A stretch of DNA of 64,000 bases. Origin: Nocardioides pocheonensis. GTDB lineage: Bacteria > Actinomycetota > Actinomycetes > Propionibacteriales > Nocardioidaceae. Both the position numbers and the translations under genes were made by a program. Of this stretch, positions 17,386-59,727 are shown in pieces (the first letter of the stretch is position 1; every line of letters starts with the position of its first letter). The notes under the pieces were generated by a model that saw only the letters and a program-made list of their open reading frames with translations, had not been told where the DNA came from and made no database searches. Where the stretch lies: assembly GCF_003725535.1 (NCBI RefSeq), contig NZ_RJSF01000049.1:1-64000 (forward strand), given 5' to 3'.

Positions 17386-18738
17386 ATGACGGGAACTGAG
17401 CAGGAGTGCGACGTCGTCGTGGTGGGTCTGGGCCCGGGCGGCGAGTACGCCGCCACGGAGCTGGCCAAGGCGGGCCTCGAGGTGGTGGCGGTCGACGAGC
17501 GGCTGGTCGGCGGCGAGTGCCCGTACTTCGGGTGCGTGCCGACCAAGATGATGATCGCCGCCGCGACGGCGCTGCGTGAGGCCGGTCGGGTCTCGCAGCT
17601 CGCCGGCGCTGCGCAGGTCGACCCGTCGTGGGCTCCGGTCGCCCGCCGGATCCGGGACGAGGCCACCGACGACTGGGACGACGCGGTGGCCGTCAAGCGC
17701 CTCGAGGACGCCGGCGCGCGCTTCGTGCGCGGGAGCGGTGTGATCACGGGCCCCCAACAGGTGACGGTGGACGGCACGGCGTACGCCGCGCGACGCGGGA
17801 TCGTGCTGAACACCGGGACGAGGCCCTCGGCGCCGCCGATCGACGGGCTCGCGGACGTGGACTACTGGACAAACCGCGACGTCGTGCGCCTGACGGAGCT
17901 GCCCGAGTCGATCGTGGTCATCGGCGGGGGACCGATCGGCTGCGAGATGGCGCAGGTGCTGGCGCAGTTCGGGGTCCGCGTGGCTGTGGTGGAGGTGGCC
18001 GACCGCCTGGTCGCCGTCGAGGAGCCGGAGTCCTCGGAGGCACTCGAGAAGGCGTTCACCGACCTCGGCATCGAGGTCGTGACGGGCGCCAGCATCGACC
18101 GGGTGACCCGCGGCGGTCACGGGATCGCGGTGCACGTGGACGGGCGCCCGCTGCAGGCCGAGCGGCTGCTCGTGGCCGCCGGCCGACGCAACAACCTCTC
18201 CGGCATCGGCCTGGAGCACGTCGGGCTCGAGGCCGAGGCCCGGGTGCTCGACCCCGACGAGCGGATGCGGGTCGCTGACGGGGTGTGGGCGATCGGCGAC
18301 ATCACCGGCAAGGGCGCGTTCACGCACATGTCGATGTACCAGGCGGCGATCGTGGTGCGCGACATCCTCGGCCAGGACGGTCCCTGGGCCGACTACCGAG
18401 CCGTGTCCCGCGTGACGTTCACCGCGCCCGAGATCGGCTCCGTGGGGTTGACCGAGAAGCAGGCCCGGGACCAGGGGCTCGAGGTGCGGACCGCGACCGG
18501 GGACCTCGGCTCACGCGGGTGGATCGCCTCGGAGCCGGGACTGGTCAAGCTGGTGGCCGACGCGGCCCGCGGCGTGCTGGTCGGCGGCACGGCGGTCGGC
18601 CCCTCCGGTGGTGAGGTGCTCTCCTTGATCACCACGGCGGTGCACGCCGAGATCCCGATCGCGACCCTGGCTGCCATGCACTTCGCCTACCCGACGTACC
18701 ACCGCGCGCTGCAGCCGGTGCTGCAGCAGCTGTTGTGA
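17386..18738 (+). CDS. FAD/NAD(P)-dependent disulfide oxidoreductase (lipoamide-dehydrogenase/mercuric-reductase-like)
   Basis: About 450 residues. The FAD-binding GLGPGGEYAATELA is near residue 13. The redox pair CPYFGC (two Cys, four residues between) is near 45. A second Rossmann motif VIGGGPIGCEMAQVL near 180 binds NAD(P), and WAIGDITGKGAFTHM near 305 closes the FAD site. At the dimer interface the usual His-Pro-Thr with a distal Glu reads AYPTYHRAL, so the lipoamide active-site base is not present in standard form. The substrate is unknown. The frame extends to GTG 17350, but ATG 17386 starts just before the first beta strand. Confidence 0.85.
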   Translation: MTGTEQECDVVVVGLGPGGEYAATELAKAGLEVVAVDERLVGGECPYFGCVPTKMMIAAATALREAGRVSQLAGAAQVDPSWAPVARRIRDEATDDWDDAVAVKRLEDAGARFVRGSGVITGPQQVTVDGTAYAARRGIVLNTGTRPSAPPIDGLADVDYWTNRDVVRLTELPESIVVIGGGPIGCEMAQVLAQFGVRVAVVEVADRLVAVEEPESSEALEKAFTDLGIEVVTGASIDRVTRGGHGIAVHVDGRPLQAERLLVAAGRRNNLSGIGLEHVGLEAEARVLDPDERMRVADGVWAIGDITGKGAFTHMSMYQAAIVVRDILGQDGPWADYRAVSRVTFTAPEIGSVGLTEKQARDQGLEVRTATGDLGSRGWIASEPGLVKLVADAARGVLVGGTAVGPSGGEVLSLITTAVHAEIPIATLAAMHFAYPTYHRALQPVLQQLL

Positions 18739-18778
18739 CCTGCCGGCGCGCGTAGCGTGCCCTCGGGCATGCCGCTGG

Positions 18779-18796
18779 CCCGGCGCGTGCGCCGGG
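18779..18796. terminator. Hairpin between convergent genes
   Basis: CCCGGCGC and GCGCCGGG face each other across two bases between the ends of the flavin oxidoreductase (plus) and the DUF222/HNH gene (minus). It is short and lacks a T-run, so terminator function in either direction is only likely. Confidence 0.4.
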
Positions 18797-18811
18797 TGCG
18801 GGGCGGGGTGG

Positions 18812-20212
18812 CTACTGGTCGGGTGGGTCCGCGGGGCTGGGCACGGTCGGCGGGCTCAGGTCGGTGGTGCCGGTGCGGTCGCGGAGCCAGGTGTGTCCGT
18901 GGGGACTGTGCCAGAGGTATTCGCCGGGTGTGAGCATGGTGTAGGTCCAGCCGCCATGGGTCTTCAACCGGTGGTGTCGTCTGCAGAGGGCAGCGAGGTT
19001 GTCGCTCGATGTCGATCCACCTTCTTGCCAGGGGACGATGTGGTCCTTGTCGCAGCCTCGGGCGGGACGCTGGCACCAGGGAAAGACGCAGGTGCGGTCC
19101 CTGAGCTCGATCTGCTCGGTGAGTGTGGGGCTGGGCTGGTAGCCGGCCGACTGCAGGGTTTCGGCGAGGTCGAGGACCGGCCGCACGGTGATCCTCGTGG
19201 TCGGGTTGGTTGAGCCTGCCGAAACCCCGCACCAGTCGGCGACCTGCCCGGCGGTGACGAGGTGTCCGCCGGCGTTCTCCAGCCACGCCGGTGCGAGCCG
19301 GTCGCCGGAGGTCAGTGCGGCGTCAGAGAGGTGCACGTAGAGCACCACCTCTCGCCGACGCGCGACAGTCGAGCCTCCACCGCGGGTGGTTGAGCCGCCG
19401 AGCTGGGTGGTTGAGCCTGCCGAAACCACCGGGTCCGGGCTCTCGAACTCCAGCACCTGCTCACCCCGAGCGAGCATCCCGACCGCGAGTGACCGGCGCA
19501 CGTCGAGCGACTCTTCGTTCCCGAGCACGGCGAGCTGCTCAGCACCCCGCCGGACGGCGTCGTCGAGGTCGATCGCGTCGGCGAGGTCGAGCTCGCCGTG
19601 GACGCGGCTGGTGCCGGCGAAGGAGACCTGGTCGTGGTCGATGGTGAAGTACCGCTGCTCGGCCGACCGGTCCCGCTGCTCGGCGGCCAGCTCCGGCATG
19701 AACCGGCCGATCGCCTCGTCGACCAGCCGTTGGGTCTGGGTGGGTCCGGTCTGGTGCGCGAACGGCGCCACCTGGGCGTCCACGAACCCAGCGGCCTCTT
19801 GGTTGAGGTGGAGGGTGGCATCAGCGATCCGCTTGGCCCGCCACGGCGCCAGGTTTCCGGCCTGCACCCGTGCCCAGGTCTTCGGGAGTCGGTGGGCCAG
19901 CTCCAGGGCCTGGGCGACCAGGTTCCGACCGGACTCCGCCGACAACCCGAGTGCGGCGGCGAGCTCCCAGACCGCGAACTCACTGACCAGAGGTGCGCCG
20001 TCGCCGGCGATCGGGATCCCGGTGTCCCGACCGGTGCCGGTCACCAGCGTCGCGGCGTCGCCGAGGTCGTCGACCACATGGAGGTGCGCCCACTCCAGGG
20101 TGGTGGCGAGGACCCGAGCTTCGGCCGCGTTCGCCTCGGCGCGAGCCTGCCGAATCGACCCGAGCACAGCACCAGCCGTAGTGGCGGTGTCGGTGCTGGT
20201 GGTCGGGTTCAT
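18812..20212 (-). CDS. DUF222 and HNH endonuclease domain protein (13E12 type)
   Basis: A 466-residue protein. The N-terminal two thirds is the helical DUF222 domain (about residues 25-330), and the C-terminus is an HNH nuclease: CVFPWC, then DKDHIVPWQEGGSTSSDNLAALCRRHHRLKT (written here as one zinc/HNH unit near residues 385-425). Such genes are multicopy in actinobacteria and their role is unsettled. Two short dispersed repeats lie in its coding sequence (VSAGST at about 265 and 335), plus a degraded third. A TAGATT box 12 bases before the ATG suggests leaderless expression. It sits beside an array of the same repeats. Confidence 0.9.
   Translation of the reverse strand: MNPTTSTDTATTAGAVLGSIRQARAEANAAEARVLATTLEWAHLHVVDDLGDAATLVTGTGRDTGIPIAGDGAPLVSEFAVWELAAALGLSAESGRNLVAQALELAHRLPKTWARVQAGNLAPWRAKRIADATLHLNQEAAGFVDAQVAPFAHQTGPTQTQRLVDEAIGRFMPELAAEQRDRSAEQRYFTIDHDQVSFAGTSRVHGELDLADAIDLDDAVRRGAEQLAVLGNEESLDVRRSLAVGMLARGEQVLEFESPDPVVSAGSTTQLGGSTTRGGGSTVARRREVVLYVHLSDAALTSGDRLAPAWLENAGGHLVTAGQVADWCGVSAGSTNPTTRITVRPVLDLAETLQSAGYQPSPTLTEQIELRDRTCVFPWCQRPARGCDKDHIVPWQEGGSTSSDNLAALCRRHHRLKTHGGWTYTMLTPGEYLWHSPHGHTWLRDRTGTTDLSPPTVPSPADPPDQ
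19206..19228 (-). repeat. Short dispersed repeat inside the DUF222/HNH gene, copy 1
   Basis: Core GAGCCTGCCGAA with GGTT/AACC arms on the plus strand; on the coding strand it reads GVSAGSTNP. It lies in the loop between DUF222 and the HNH domain and keeps the frame open. Confidence 0.75.
19406..19430 (-). repeat. Short dispersed repeat inside the DUF222/HNH gene, copy 2
   Basis: A perfect short-form copy with 6-bp GTGGTT/AACCAC arms. On the coding strand it gives VVSAGSTT. A degraded neighbour (19386-19405) extends the segment to a Gly/Ser/Thr-rich stretch QLGGSTTRGGGST. Confidence 0.8.
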
Positions 20213-20218
20213 GGTTCG

Positions 20219-20224
20219 AATCTA
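20219..20224 (-). promoter_or_regulatory. Probable -10 box of a leaderless DUF222/HNH transcript
   Basis: Read on the minus strand, TAGATT lies 12 bases before the ATG at 20212. The geometry is identical to the boxes before rarA and hisE. No clear -35. Confidence 0.45.
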
Positions 20225-20324
20225 GGGGTGACCACCGACAGAAATGGGCCCGGATCCCCTTGCTGGTAGGGGAATTCGGAAGACTTCTTGAGAATCTTTC
20301 GCGCCCGCCTTCGACTCGGGATCC

Positions 20325-20931
20325 GGTGGTTTCGGCAGGCTCAACCACCTGGGGTTGGCTCGGCGGTCGGTGGCTGGGTCCAGAGCCGTGGGGTGGTTTC
20401 GAGGCGCGCTGGCGCTCGCACCTCAACCACCAAGGAGGCTGCGGATCCGTGAGCCGACAGCAGAACCCTGGCCGGCGCGGGACCGCGTCGTCGCCGCCCG
20501 GTCCCCCGGCACGGACCGCGACCCGACGAGCATGGTTTCGGCAAGCTCAACCAGCGGTGGTTGGGGTCCCTGCCCGTCGCGTGGTTTCGAGGCTCGCTGG
20601 CGCTCGCACCTCAACCACCCAAGCACCGCTGAGCCGCAGCCGGCAGCGAGACCCGGCCCGACGCAGTACCCCGTCGTCGCTGCCCGTTCCCCGGCACAGA
20701 CCGCCACCGGCCAGGGTGGTTTCGAGGCTCGCTGGCGCTCGCACCTCAACCACCGAGGGACTCGCGCCCGACCGCGAGTCCCAGCCGCGCGCCGGTACCG
20801 CTTCGTCGCTGCCCGTCCCCCCGGCGCAGACCGCCACCGGCCAGAGTGGTTTCGGCAGGCTCAACCCCCGTGGGGCTGGGCTACCAAGCAGAGTGGTTTC
20901 GAGGCTCGCTGGCGCTCGCACCTCAACCACC
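20325..20931 (+). repeat. Array of short modular repeats between DUF222/HNH and DUF1206 genes
   Basis: The 785-base gap 20213-20997 has no gene. It holds seven elements, all in the same orientation. Short form (5-nt core): 20325-20349, 20533-20553 (one change, AAG for AGG) and 20846-20867. Long form (20-nt core, 38-39 nt): 20393-20431 (one change), 20581-20619, 20716-20754 and 20893-20931. All begin GTGGTTTCG (or TGGTTTCG) and end CTCAACC(AC). Order is short-long-short-long-long-short-long. The spacers also repeat: a 44-nt unit is shared by 20671-20714 and 20801-20844 and more weakly by about 20484-20527. An open frame continues through the array into DUF1206 but looks non-coding. Confidence 0.9.
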
Positions 20932-20997
20932 GATCGGGAGCCGGCGTCCGCCACCCTGCCCGCCGCATCCGACCGCCCGCACGGGGTACCGAGGGCC

Positions 20998-21840
20998 ATG
21001 ACACAGATGTCCGAAGCTGGGGTGGGGGACCGGGTTGAGCGCGTCGGGCAACGGGCGGACGCGAGCGGCTGGCTCGACACGGCCGTGCGGTTCGGCCTGG
21101 TTGCCTACGGGGTCGTCTACCTGATGATCGCCTGGGTGGCGGGCCAGCTCGCCGTCGGCCACCACTCCGGCCGGCCGTCGCCTCAGGGCGCGCTCGCGGA
21201 GCTGGCCCGGCAGCCGCTCGGCAAGGTGCTGCTGTGGGCGATCGCGGTCGGCCTGTTCCTGCTGGTCGCCTGGAGGCTGCTCGAGGCGTTCGTCGGCCAC
21301 CGGAGCTCCGACGGTGCCGAGCTCGCGGGGAAGCGGGCCCTGTCGGCGGGCAAGGCCGTGCTGTACGGCGCACTGGGCGTGAGCGCGGTCAAGGTGGCCA
21401 CGGGGAGCGCTCAGCAGGGTCAGTCCGCGCGGGCCCGGACGATGACCGCGAAGCTGATGGATCTCCCCGCGGGGCAGTGGATCGTCGGGCTGATCGGCCT
21501 GGCCATCATCGTGTACGGCGCGGTCCTCATCTGGAACGGCTTCACCGACCGGTTCCTCAAGCACCTCGACGGGCAGGGACGCTCCGGGGACGCCGGACGT
21601 GCCTACACGTGGTTCGGCCGGATCGGCTACTGCGCGAAGGGTCTCGCCTTCGGGATCGTCGGTGTCCTGGTCGGCTACGCCGCGGTCACGCACCAGCCGA
21701 AGAAGTCAGGTGGGCTCGACCAGGCGCTGGCCAAGCTCCTGCACCAGCCGTTCGGCCCGTGGCTGCTGCTGGCGACCGCCGTGGGCATCGGCTGCTACGG
21801 CCTCTTCTGCTTCGCCTGGGCCCGCCACCTCTCGCGCTGA
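20998..21840 (+). CDS. DUF1206 family membrane protein
   Basis: A 280-residue membrane protein with six hydrophobic helices in three pairs, each pair opening with a related segment (LVAYGVVYLMIAW; AVLYGALGVSAVK; YCAKGLAFGIVGV). This threefold repeat is the hallmark of DUF1206, whose function is unknown. The frame is open well upstream through the repeat array; ATG 20998 is chosen because it gives a short polar N-terminus before the first helix, though ATG 21007 is equally possible. GAGGG lies only two bases before 20998. It converges with the next gene, seven bases apart. Confidence 0.8.
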   Translation: MTQMSEAGVGDRVERVGQRADASGWLDTAVRFGLVAYGVVYLMIAWVAGQLAVGHHSGRPSPQGALAELARQPLGKVLLWAIAVGLFLLVAWRLLEAFVGHRSSDGAELAGKRALSAGKAVLYGALGVSAVKVATGSAQQGQSARARTMTAKLMDLPAGQWIVGLIGLAIIVYGAVLIWNGFTDRFLKHLDGQGRSGDAGRAYTWFGRIGYCAKGLAFGIVGVLVGYAAVTHQPKKSGGLDQALAKLLHQPFGPWLLLATAVGIGCYGLFCFAWARHLSR

Positions 21841-35877: not shown

Positions 35878-35898
35878 TGGTTTCGGCAGGCTCGACCA
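35877..35898 (+). repeat. Short dispersed repeat supplying the carA start codon
   Basis: GTGGTTTCG and GCAGG are intact; the right end reads CTCGACCA. The first three bases are the GTG start codon of carA, and the ribosome-binding site lies just outside in the previous gene. It encodes MVSAGST. Confidence 0.8.
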
Positions 35899-37078
35899 TC
35901 AGTCCCGGTGAGGCGATCCTCGTCCTCGAGGACGGTCGCACGTTCCGGGGAGAGTCCTACGGCGCGGAGGGCGAGACCTTCGGCGAGGCCGTCTTCTCCA
36001 CCGGCATGACCGGCTACCAGGAGACGCTGACCGACCCGTCGTACCACCGGCAGGTGGTGGTGATGACGGCTCCCCACGTCGGGAACACCGGCATGAACGA
36101 CGAGGACCCTGAGTCGGGCCGGATCTGGGTCGCGGGGTACGTCGTCCGCGATCCCGCCCGCATCCCGTCGAACTGGCGGGCGACCCACACGCTCGACGAC
36201 GCGCTGCGTGACCAGGGGGTGGTCGGGATCAGCGGCATCGACACCCGCGCCCTCACCCGGCACCTGCGCGAGCGGGGCGCGATGCGGGTCGGCATCTCCA
36301 GCACGGAGACCGACCCCCAGGCACTGCTCGAGCGCGTCCTCGCCAGCGGCGAGATGGCGGGCGCGGAGCTGTCCGACGAGGTCACCACGTCGGAGGCGTA
36401 CGTCGTGCCGGCGGTTTCGGCAGGCTCAACCACCGGAGAGAGGGCAACCACCGGTGCCGGGACGCTTCGGGTGGCCGCGATCGACCTGGGCATCAAGGCC
36501 AACACGCCGCGGATGCTCAGCGAGCGCGGCGTCGAGGTGCACGTGCTGCCGGCGACCGCGAGCATCGAGGACGTCCTCGCCGTCAGCCCGGACGGGCTGT
36601 TCTACTCCAACGGTCCCGGTGACCCGGCGGCCACGACCGCGCAGGTCGCGCTGCTCCAGGACGCCCTCGAGCGCGGCATCCCGTACTTCGGGATCTGCTT
36701 CGGCAACCAGCTGTTCGGCCGCGCGCTGGGCTTCGGCACCTACAAGCTCAAGTACGGCCACCGCGGCATCAACCAGCCGGTGATGGACCGCACCACCGGC
36801 AAGGTCGAGGTGACCGCGCACAACCACGGCTTCGCCGTCGACGCGCCCCTCGAGGGCAGCACCACCACGCCGTACGGCGTCGCGACCGTCAGCCACGTCT
36901 GCCTCAACGACGACGTCGTGGAGGGGCTCGAGCTGCGCGACGCTGTGCCCGACGGTGGGCAGGGCGCGCTGAAGGCGTTCTCGGTGCAGTACCACCCGGA
37001 GGCGGCAGCCGGTCCGCACGACGCGGCGTACCTGTTCGACCGGTTCCTTGACCTGATGAACGAGCGGAAGAAGGCCTG

Positions 37079-58339: not shown

Positions 58340-59727
58340 CCGACCCCCTCACTGACCCCACCAGCACTCCCCATCGCGCCGGCATCCCGCTGGACAGCGT
58401 CGAGGAGGCGATCGCGGACATCGCGGCCGGCAAGGCCGTCGTGGTGGTCGACGACGAGGACCGCGAGAACGAGGGCGACATCATCTTCGCGGCCTCGAAG
58501 GCGACCCCCGAGCTGATGGCGTTCACCATCCGCCACTCCAGCGGCGTGATCTGCGTCCCGATGCCGGCCGAGATGCTCGACCGCCTCGAGATCCCGTTGA
58601 TGACACCGCACAACAAGGACCGGCTGCGGACGGCGTACACGATCTCCGTCGACGCCCGCGACGGCGTGTCGACGGGCATCTCGGCCGCCGACCGCGCGCA
58701 CACCGCCCGCGTGCTGGCCGACTCCGCGACCGAACCCTGGGAGATCACCCGGCCCGGGCACGTGTTCCCGCTGCGCTACCGCGAGGGCGGCGTGCTGGTC
58801 CGGCGTGGGCACACCGAGGCGGCCGTCGACCTGGCCCGCATGGCCGGCCTCACGCCGGCCGGCGTCCTGGTCGAGGTCGTCAACGACGACGGCACGATGA
58901 AGCGCGGGCCCGAGCTGCGCGAGTTCGCCGACGAGCACGGCCTCAAGCTGATCTCGATCGAGCAGATGGTCCACCACCGGCGCCGGACCGAGACCCACGT
59001 CGAGCGGGTGGCCGAGACCCGGCTCCCGACCAAGTACGGCGACTTCACCGCGTTCGGCTACCGGATCACGGTCGACGACTCCGAGCACATCGCCCTCGTG
59101 TACGGCGACCCGGCCGACCTGCCGGGGGAGCCGGTGCTCACCCGGGTGCACAGCGAGTGCCTCACCGGAGACGTGTTCGGCTCCGCGCGCTGCGACTGCG
59201 GCCCGCAGCTCGAGGAGGCGCTGGAGCGGATCGCGGAGGAGGGCCGCGGGGTGGTGATCTACCTGCGCGGGCACGAGGGCCGCGGGATCGGGCTGCTGGC
59301 GAAGCTGCAGGCCTACCAGCTCCAGGACGGCGGACGCGACACCGTCGACGCGAACCTCGACCTCGGCCTCCCGGCCGACGCCCGCCACTACGGCGCCGCG
59401 ACCCAGATCCTGCGGGACCTCGGCATCGACACGGTGCGGCTGCTGACGAACAACCCCGACAAGACCTCCAGCCTGGAGTCCTACGGCATCCCGGTCGCCG
59501 AGCGGGTCCCGCTGACGCCCCGGCCCAACGACCACAACCTGACCTACCTGCGCACCAAGCGCGACCGGATGGGCCACGACCTGCCCGACCTGGCGTCGAC
59601 GCACGAGCCCTTGTTGGTTGAGCCTGCCGAAACCGACCACGCCCCGGTGGTCGACCAGCCCCCGGTGGTCGACCAGCCCCCGGTGGTTGAGCCTGCCGAA
59701 ACCACCCCGACGCGAGGAGCGAGCTGA
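58336..59727 (+). CDS. ribBA: Bifunctional DHBP synthase / GTP cyclohydrolase II RibBA
   Basis: 463 residues. The N-terminal DHBP synthase ([15 protein letters not shown] near 37; [13 protein letters not shown] near 113) supplies the four-carbon unit, and the C-terminal cyclohydrolase ([19 protein letters not shown] near 272 with zinc cysteines; GHEGRGIGL near 312; LLTNNPDK near 370) opens GTP. After the catalytic end near residue 425 comes a tail of about 38 residues made of VEPAET, two PVVDQP units and VEPAETTP, encoded by two dispersed repeats and an 18-nt tandem repeat. It overlaps ribH by one base. Confidence 0.95.
59616..59634 (-). repeat. Short dispersed repeat in the ribBA tail, copy 1
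   Basis: Reverse-orientation copy with GGTT/AACC arms and intact core; read as VEPAET in the ribBA frame. Confidence 0.75.
59645..59681 (+). repeat. 18-nt tandem repeat in the ribBA tail
   Basis: Two adjacent copies of CCGGTGGTCGACCAGCCC, each encoding PVVDQP, leading into the second dispersed repeat, whose first bases are the same (CCGGTGGT). Confidence 0.8.
59682..59706 (-). repeat. Short dispersed repeat in the ribBA tail, copy 2
   Basis: A perfect reverse-orientation copy with seven-base arms GGTGGTT/AACCACC, encoding VVEPAETT just before the end of RibBA. Confidence 0.8.

Follow-up and report, generated by a model that had tools for sequence, protein, structure and literature searches.

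A palindrome array at the 5′ end of a multi-copy mobile DUF222-HNH element in Nocardioides pocheonensis

The palindrome array at positions 20326-20931 of the window (the whole stretch of DNA analysed, 64,000 nucleotides of contig NZ_RJSF01000049.1 of Nocardioides pocheonensis) makes up the terminal repeats at the 5′ end of a mobile DUF222-HNH element, one of multiple copies in the genome. The array is not a stand-alone structure and forms the 5′ part of a unit of about 2.17 kb, which carries a DUF222-HNH endonuclease gene (Table 1). The reading to which we incline, tentatively and without calling it probable, is that of a 5′ end array of a mobile element whose nuclease cuts the short (S) and long (L) forms of the palindrome and thereby drives the change of the array as well as the seeding of S elsewhere.

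Table 1. Features of the DUF222-HNH element and of its array, with positions in the window.
Feature	Position	Strand	Remarks
Whole element	18765-20931	-	array (5′ relative to the gene), DUF222-HNH gene and, at the 3′ end, terminal hairpin + GGCATGCCC
3′ terminus	18765-18796	-	hairpin CCCGGCGC-AC-GCGCCGGG (18779-18796), then CCAGCGGCATGCCC
DUF222-HNH endonuclease gene	18812-20212	-	466 aa, intact; beside the array
Second short form in DUF222-HNH frame	19206-19228	-	in some own copies, absent from others
Short form in DUF222-HNH reading frame	19407-19429	-	reads VVSAGSTT; protein alignment with relatives broken or gapped around the site
Conserved leader 5′ of start codon	20213-20297	-	inverted repeat TCCCC-TACCAGCAA-GGGGA; similar in readable own copies
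Short form S1	20326-20348	+	GTGGTTTCGGCAGGCTCAACCAC and near variants
Long form L1	20392-20431	+	GGTGGTTTCGAGGCTCGCTGGCGCTCGCACCTCAACCACC and near variants
Spacer 1	20432-20531	+	
Short form S2	20532-20554	+	GTGGTTTCGGCAGGCTCAACCAC and near variants
Long form L2	20580-20619	+	GGTGGTTTCGAGGCTCGCTGGCGCTCGCACCTCAACCACC and near variants
Spacer 2	20620-20714	+	matches 44 genome places, itself included
Long form L3	20715-20754	+	unit without short form; GGTGGTTTCGAGGCTCGCTGGCGCTCGCACCTCAACCACC and near variants
Spacer 3	20755-20845	+	
Short form S3	20846-20868	+	GTGGTTTCGGCAGGCTCAACCAC and near variants
Long form L4	20892-20931	+	outer end of element; GGTGGTTTCGAGGCTCGCTGGCGCTCGCACCTCAACCACC and near variants
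Gene at 20998	20998 (start)		DUF1206; divergent from the DUF222-HNH gene

Seven palindromes on the same (+) strand follow each other in the order S-L-S-L-L-S-L. An earlier note on this DNA had described this order and the common orientation, and both are borne out by the coordinates and by a shuffle control, in which the S and L patterns (up to three mismatches) found no match in 100 dinucleotide shuffles of the window. The gaps from S to L amount to 44, 26 and 24 nt, those from L to the next element to 101, 97 and 92 nt. The array is located between two divergent genes with starts at 20212 and 20998. The spacers are copies of one another and not unlike, contrary to what would be expected of a CRISPR array. 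At the gathering threshold Rfam yields no match at the array or the element; the only match in the window is an FMN riboswitch elsewhere (RF00050, 56463-56593, + strand, 90.9 bits).

When positions 18500-21200 are compared with 20 regions, the homology in most cases breaks off at 18740-18766 at one end, while at the other it reaches as far as palindrome ends, up to 20931-20934. The 3′ ends of 16 copies of the same genome are alike, consisting of the hairpin and GGC(A/G)TGC (A in 13, G in 3), after which the flanks diverge; shared flank beyond the 3′ end is found only between loci L098 and L103. Most copies contain the stem CCCGGCGC-AC-GCGCCGGG, other stems that still pair are present in L097, L100 and L105, and L101 has one mismatch. 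The same kind of 3′ end, with a different but pairing stem, is seen in the four copies examined of the nearest relative, G001. Folding of the isolated 50-nt 3′ end gives no gain in stability over shuffled versions (z -0.27), and the hairpin therefore rests on these changed yet pairing stems. On the 5′ side the readable copies stop at the end of an S in some cases and at the end of an L in others, and in L092 and L102 short repeats of the palindrome tail follow. Contigs C1, C2, C3, C5, C23, C33, C34, C35, C36 and C42 end in or near arrays of the element, so that its copy number may be misjudged.

The flanks of eight element copies were searched in 30 genomes. At L094 the flanks adjoin without the element in 14 relatives, and L102 and L104 have an empty site in one relative each; these three loci were picked for comparison since both flanks had come up together. 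For the other five copies, that of the window included, the flanks do not lie side by side among the matches listed for the 30 genomes. The intergenic flanks at the three empty sites are too diverged for a base-exact junction or a target duplication to be defined. As judged from the empty sites, insertion of the element is shown at three loci.

Within the protein encoded by the element, Pfam detects DUF222 (34.6 bits, cut-off 24.4) and HNH (31.3 bits, cut-off 21.4) and no further domain, and thus no known transposase domain. With both domains and several copies, the gene would be placed by its sequence in the DUF222-HNH (13E12-type) multi-copy family. Membership in IscB was considered and rejected, the NCBIfam score of 19.8 bits being far below the cut-off of 175. 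The HNH part resembles the HNH of IscB-type elements weakly (the same NCBIfam score; best PDB chain with E 0.31), whereas the DUF222 domain and the lack of an Rfam match at the locus (gathering threshold) distinguish the window protein from IscB. A tblastn search of the genome gives 35 matching pieces, which correspond to 18 window-type places with the window included, a count that omits four pieces of 29-40% identity; the 17 places outside the window are 62-97% identical to the window gene. Some of these copies are partly cut by contig ends or runs of N, and because the breaks are at least partly such assembly gaps, no conclusion is drawn from "broken" copies. Between copies of the window's genome (G000), dN/dS as calculated by a script of our own making ranges from 0.20 to 0.40 (median 0.25; 19 pairs, seven copies or pieces), between those of G006 from 0.14 to 0.24 (21 pairs) and between seven of eight retrieved copies of G002 from 0.14 to 0.23 (21 pairs), the medians across the three genomes being 0.25, 0.20 and 0.18. 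These low values point to purifying selection on the DUF222-HNH gene. A library of anti-phage defence systems contains no match to the protein. Among 72,556 plasmid records ten match, of which one from Georgenia covers 86% of the query with 45.5% identity and the other nine cover 17-20%; among 50,697 phage records three match, covering 11-18%. The viral contigs gave no confirmed match, and a single match of 28 residues in the named genomes was judged to be due to chance.

The arrangement of the window's array recurs in the set of 17 arrays of the same genome, several of which are truncated at contig ends or at runs of N. Their S-to-L gaps (n = 25) measure 21-27 nt in 14 cases, 41-45 nt in nine cases, which represent the gene-proximal pair, and more in the remaining two; L-to-S gaps of 90-101 nt are found in 15 of 19 cases and L-to-L gaps of the same size in seven of ten. 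The composite unit consists of a spacer (~97 nt), S (23 nt), a linker (~25 nt) and L (38 nt). Since L-to-L and L-to-S gaps are about equally long, an L-L junction represents a unit without S and linker. The loss of a short form before position 20716, as proposed in the earlier note, fits this picture, given that spacer and L replace spacer, S, linker and L here and in five other arrays. Likewise the shared 44-nt spacer unit described there is real, although it extends further: the whole spacer of ~97 nt is common to the arrays. Twenty-two spacers between an L and the next element, 85-105 nt long and free of N, were compared from 13 arrays (others were excluded for length or N). Their identity averages 77.5% between arrays and 79% within them, compared with 62% (maximum 69%) for shuffled spacers. 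The nearest spacer is found in the same array in two of the 22 cases, with a mean of 1.1 for random labels, and both cases belong to one array other than that of the window; in array L093 two identical spacers stand side by side. As the nearest spacer is seldom located in the same array, the window's array is not the product of a recent local amplification, and by these spacer comparisons it appears to be old and reshuffled. Array content varies among the element copies inside one genome. The matches of spacer 2 are distributed over arrays beside a DUF222 copy (30), contig ends (12) and two short stretches elsewhere (26-30 nt), and the composite unit is thus almost exclusive to the DUF222-HNH element.

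The earlier note had explained the array by amplification of a composite unit, which would amount to local tandem amplification through unequal recombination, unconnected with the neighbouring gene. The composite unit itself, the lost short forms and the identical adjacent spacers of L093 agree with this proposal. It is nevertheless very unlikely in view of the occurrence of the same unit in 17 arrays, of 42 of the 44 spacer matches beside DUF222-HNH copies or at contig ends, and of spacers that are hardly more alike within arrays than between them. What stands of the proposal is the composite unit with its lost short form; a recent local duplication does not agree with the scarcity of nearest spacers inside the same array.

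Both palindrome forms are dispersed over the genome, with 139 exact matches of S and 83 of L and none in backward controls, and 26 of the 83 L are located within 2 kb of a window-type DUF222 copy, where 1.5 would be expected. For fifteen S sites that lie within genes or at their margins, the sequence with S removed was searched in 24 genomes, and at no fewer than twelve of them the junction is spanned by a match of a relative. Because the own genome also spans the junction, with the extra length of S, the match lengths decide on insertion. Ten of these sites were aligned with two relatives each, eight of them harbouring a single S (16 comparisons). At a single S the lengths differ by a net 18 bp in 12 of 15 comparisons, by 15 bp in two and by 20 bp in one. 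In the remaining comparison of the 16 (L272 of G001 with L240) the relative possesses a palindrome of its own type at the same place of the gene in opposite orientation, which may indicate a preferred insertion site. Two S sites with tail repeats display larger length differences. At the gene sites compared, the alignments show S as an insertion in frame, absent in the relatives and with a net gain of mostly 18 bp.

Ten proteins with S in frame were submitted to NCBIfam, two of which remained without a name. In GatB and in an FAD-binding protein the matched part includes S. In Mfd, NarG and a GH1 beta-glucosidase, S is close to matched stretches or lies between them, and in NarH, threonine--tRNA ligase and an aldehyde dehydrogenase it falls outside the stretch that matches best. 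Three of these proteins (NarG, NarH and the aldehyde dehydrogenase) are incomplete here and score below the curated cut-offs. By a third-position GC threshold of our own, 25 of 91 S places have a clearly coding context and 66 do not. The 25 coding S, which include a few doublets in one gene or copies in the DUF222 gene, are read as VSAGSTT (15), VEPAET (8) or SLPKP (2) and never in any of the other three frames, the absence of which points to selection against them.

Regulatory or structural DNA, such as terminators or sites of gyrase or nucleoid proteins, between the divergent genes starting at 20212 and 20998 would be in keeping with the position of the array. It would also be in keeping with the weak single-strand folding of L (-8.1 kcal/mol, z -1.7) and S (-2.9 kcal/mol, z -1.5), with the inverted doublets of S and with the majority of S places outside clearly coding context. 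Against this explanation, which we regard as improbable, the stems are not followed by a T tract, S is found inside coding sequences as well, and the unit accompanies the DUF222-HNH gene in unlike surroundings.

REP sequences and their associated Y1 transposases (RAYT) are characterized by multi-copy short imperfect palindromes, which form inverted doublets and cluster at one gene family. S and L resemble them as dispersed short palindromes that cluster at the DUF222-HNH family. Inverted doublets (S+ S-) are present in G000 at C3:275475, C5:61025, C40:193711, C40:229732, C40:776975, C40:848800, C40:852487 and C42:15062, a layout that we take to be similar to that of REPINs. On these grounds we considered a REP/RAYT system of the classical kind, which would depend on a Y1 (HUH) transposase. 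In contrast to such systems, the associated gene here encodes DUF222-HNH, and S also inserts in frame. The profile of the Y1 transposase (Y1_Tnp, PF01797) has no match in the genome, while the control matches in five of 14 genomes. This contradicts the classical system, to which we assign hardly any likelihood, unless its transposase gene is hidden by a gap of the assembly.

A further property of S concerns its immediate surroundings. In 122 distinct S with 100-nt flanks, examined for periods of 14-30, a tandem duplication of GGCTCAACC(ACC) together with some local flank is found 3′ of S in 25 cases and 5′ of S in two; these stricter counts replace a looser one of tail repeats (38 of 122 downstream, four upstream). 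The period is 18-22 in 24 of the 25 duplications, and the remaining one, with a period of 29, corresponds to two adjacent S. A single site in the DUF222 gene accounts, through its paralogous copies, for ten of the 25. Outside the arrays and the DUF222 gene the ratio is 12 of 60 (3′) to one of 60 (5′), the 12 including the adjacent S pair and one outer end of an array; the automatic grouping of the S sites misplaced a few. As the one-sidedness follows the orientation of S, its source seems to be S itself.

Duplications on one side only would result if an enzyme made one cut in S and another 18-22 nt away. The DUF222-HNH enzyme encoded beside the arrays is an obvious suspect for the spread of the palindromes, and its HNH nuclease is a candidate cutter, which would recognize S and L and break them at offset positions. 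The array could subsequently expand or contract through recombination or through fill-in and end joining, and the same processes would leave the one-sided duplications and occasionally seed S elsewhere. In that case the array would supply the element with cut sites and might also be its end for replication or insertion.

Of 30 genomes, 16 contain matches to the DUF222-HNH protein with E of 1e-40 or better; they all belong to the same genus, and several have many matches. DUF222 matches are present in all 24 genomes of the genus searched, with 1 to 20 each. Copies in G001, G002 and G006 have arrays next to them, 5′ or 3′ of the copy or at both ends, and the palindromes of these arrays are distinct in sequence; such arrays were seen at one copy in each of the three genomes, and repeated flank pieces at others. 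The dispersed S form is that of the arrays, namely GGTTTCGGCARGCTCAACC in G000, mostly GGTTTCGACAGGCTCAACC in G001 and nearly always GGTCTCGACARGCTCGACC in G002, among the matches listed. In the 24 genomes of the genus the numbers of DUF222 and palindrome matches are correlated (Spearman 0.48, p 0.017; per Mb 0.43, p 0.037), with kinship left uncontrolled in these values. In G007, which has 20 DUF222 matches, the loose palindrome pattern finds only 38 matches and the S pattern finds no match. Within 420 nt, no array is found at three copies of G007 or at one copy of G018, and one copy of G011 has none either, apart from a single palindrome-like stretch. Conversely, 20 palindrome-rich places chosen as being without a known DUF222 copy (13 in G002, four in G018, two in G013 and one in G001) were searched by tblastn with eight DUF222 proteins in stretches of 10 kb (5.3 kb up to a contig end in G001), and DUF222 is absent at 19 of them. 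The palindromes hence form arrays without the gene as well. Regular tandem arrays with palindromes about 30-62 bp apart and no DUF222 in 10 kb were observed at L295, L304, L306 and L307 (G002, G018 and G013).

An obligatory link between DUF222 and the palindromes is opposed by G007 and by the 19 of 20 places. It is accordingly a serious possibility that the palindromes represent an independent selfish dispersal system, similar to REP sequences or to Rickettsia palindromic elements and mobilized by another factor, that the DUF222-HNH element carries them as cargo, and that the arrays vary by ordinary recombination or slippage. The arrays of relatives without DUF222 nearby, the DUF222-rich and palindrome-poor G007 and the insertion of S in unrelated genes argue for it. 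The strong clustering of L at DUF222 copies and the near confinement of the spacer unit to the element argue against it, as do the lack of a match for the Y1 transposase and the fact that in four species, whose palindromes differ, arrays adjoin DUF222 genes. On account of G007 and the arrays free of DUF222, spread by another enzyme with subsequent colonization of the element is nearly as likely as cutting by the HNH nuclease.

A more far-reaching version of the preferred reading, in which the DUF222-HNH nuclease acts on S and L, sees in the DUF222-HNH proteins the enzymatic part of another type of REP system. Independently of Y1, they would cut the species-specific palindromes of the arrays and plant 18-bp copies across the genome, including in-frame linkers (VSAGSTT or VEPAET) in conserved enzymes. 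In this full extent the proposal is doubtful, and rather unlikely to hold as it stands. Short palindromes that insert in frame into conserved genes and leave one-sided duplications could provide an answer to the spread of REP-like repeats that does without RAYT. The fixed hairpin end, the empty sites and the candidate cut-site array render the mobility of the DUF222 gene directly testable. No published function of DUF222 genes was found in the openly licensed literature searched, and no link between DUF222 and palindromes in the titles and abstract beginnings of the openly licensed papers listed.

By name, the DUF222-HNH repeat comes close to the REP13E12 or 13E12 repeat family (DUF222-HNH) of mycobacteria. 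The DIVE paper names REP13E12/HNH endonuclease/DUF222 among repetitive elements (PMC10589994). The repeated DUF222-HNH gene is the common feature, a likeness by name and description. Palindrome arrays and a fixed hairpin end, as seen in the window's element, are not mentioned in the available portion of that paper or in the titles and abstract beginnings listed.

For the insertion in frame, Rickettsia palindromic elements are, to our knowledge, the nearest match. These are described, in the accessible part of a review, as sequences of about 150 bp that reside in frame in unrelated genes (PMC10969869). As far as that part goes, S is similar in being inserted in frame into unrelated genes and absent in relatives, but differs in that it adds mostly 18 bp, encodes VSAGSTT or VEPAET, and has arrays with a candidate enzyme gene beside them. 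In-frame palindromes with one-sided duplications of 18-22 bp would constitute a source of protein insertions. Elsewhere in the window, short forms are located at 35878 (+) and at 36412 (+), the latter reading AVSAGSTT in frame, and those at 59615 and 59684 (-) read VEPAET in the frame of one ORF, with tail-like repeats following at 59684.
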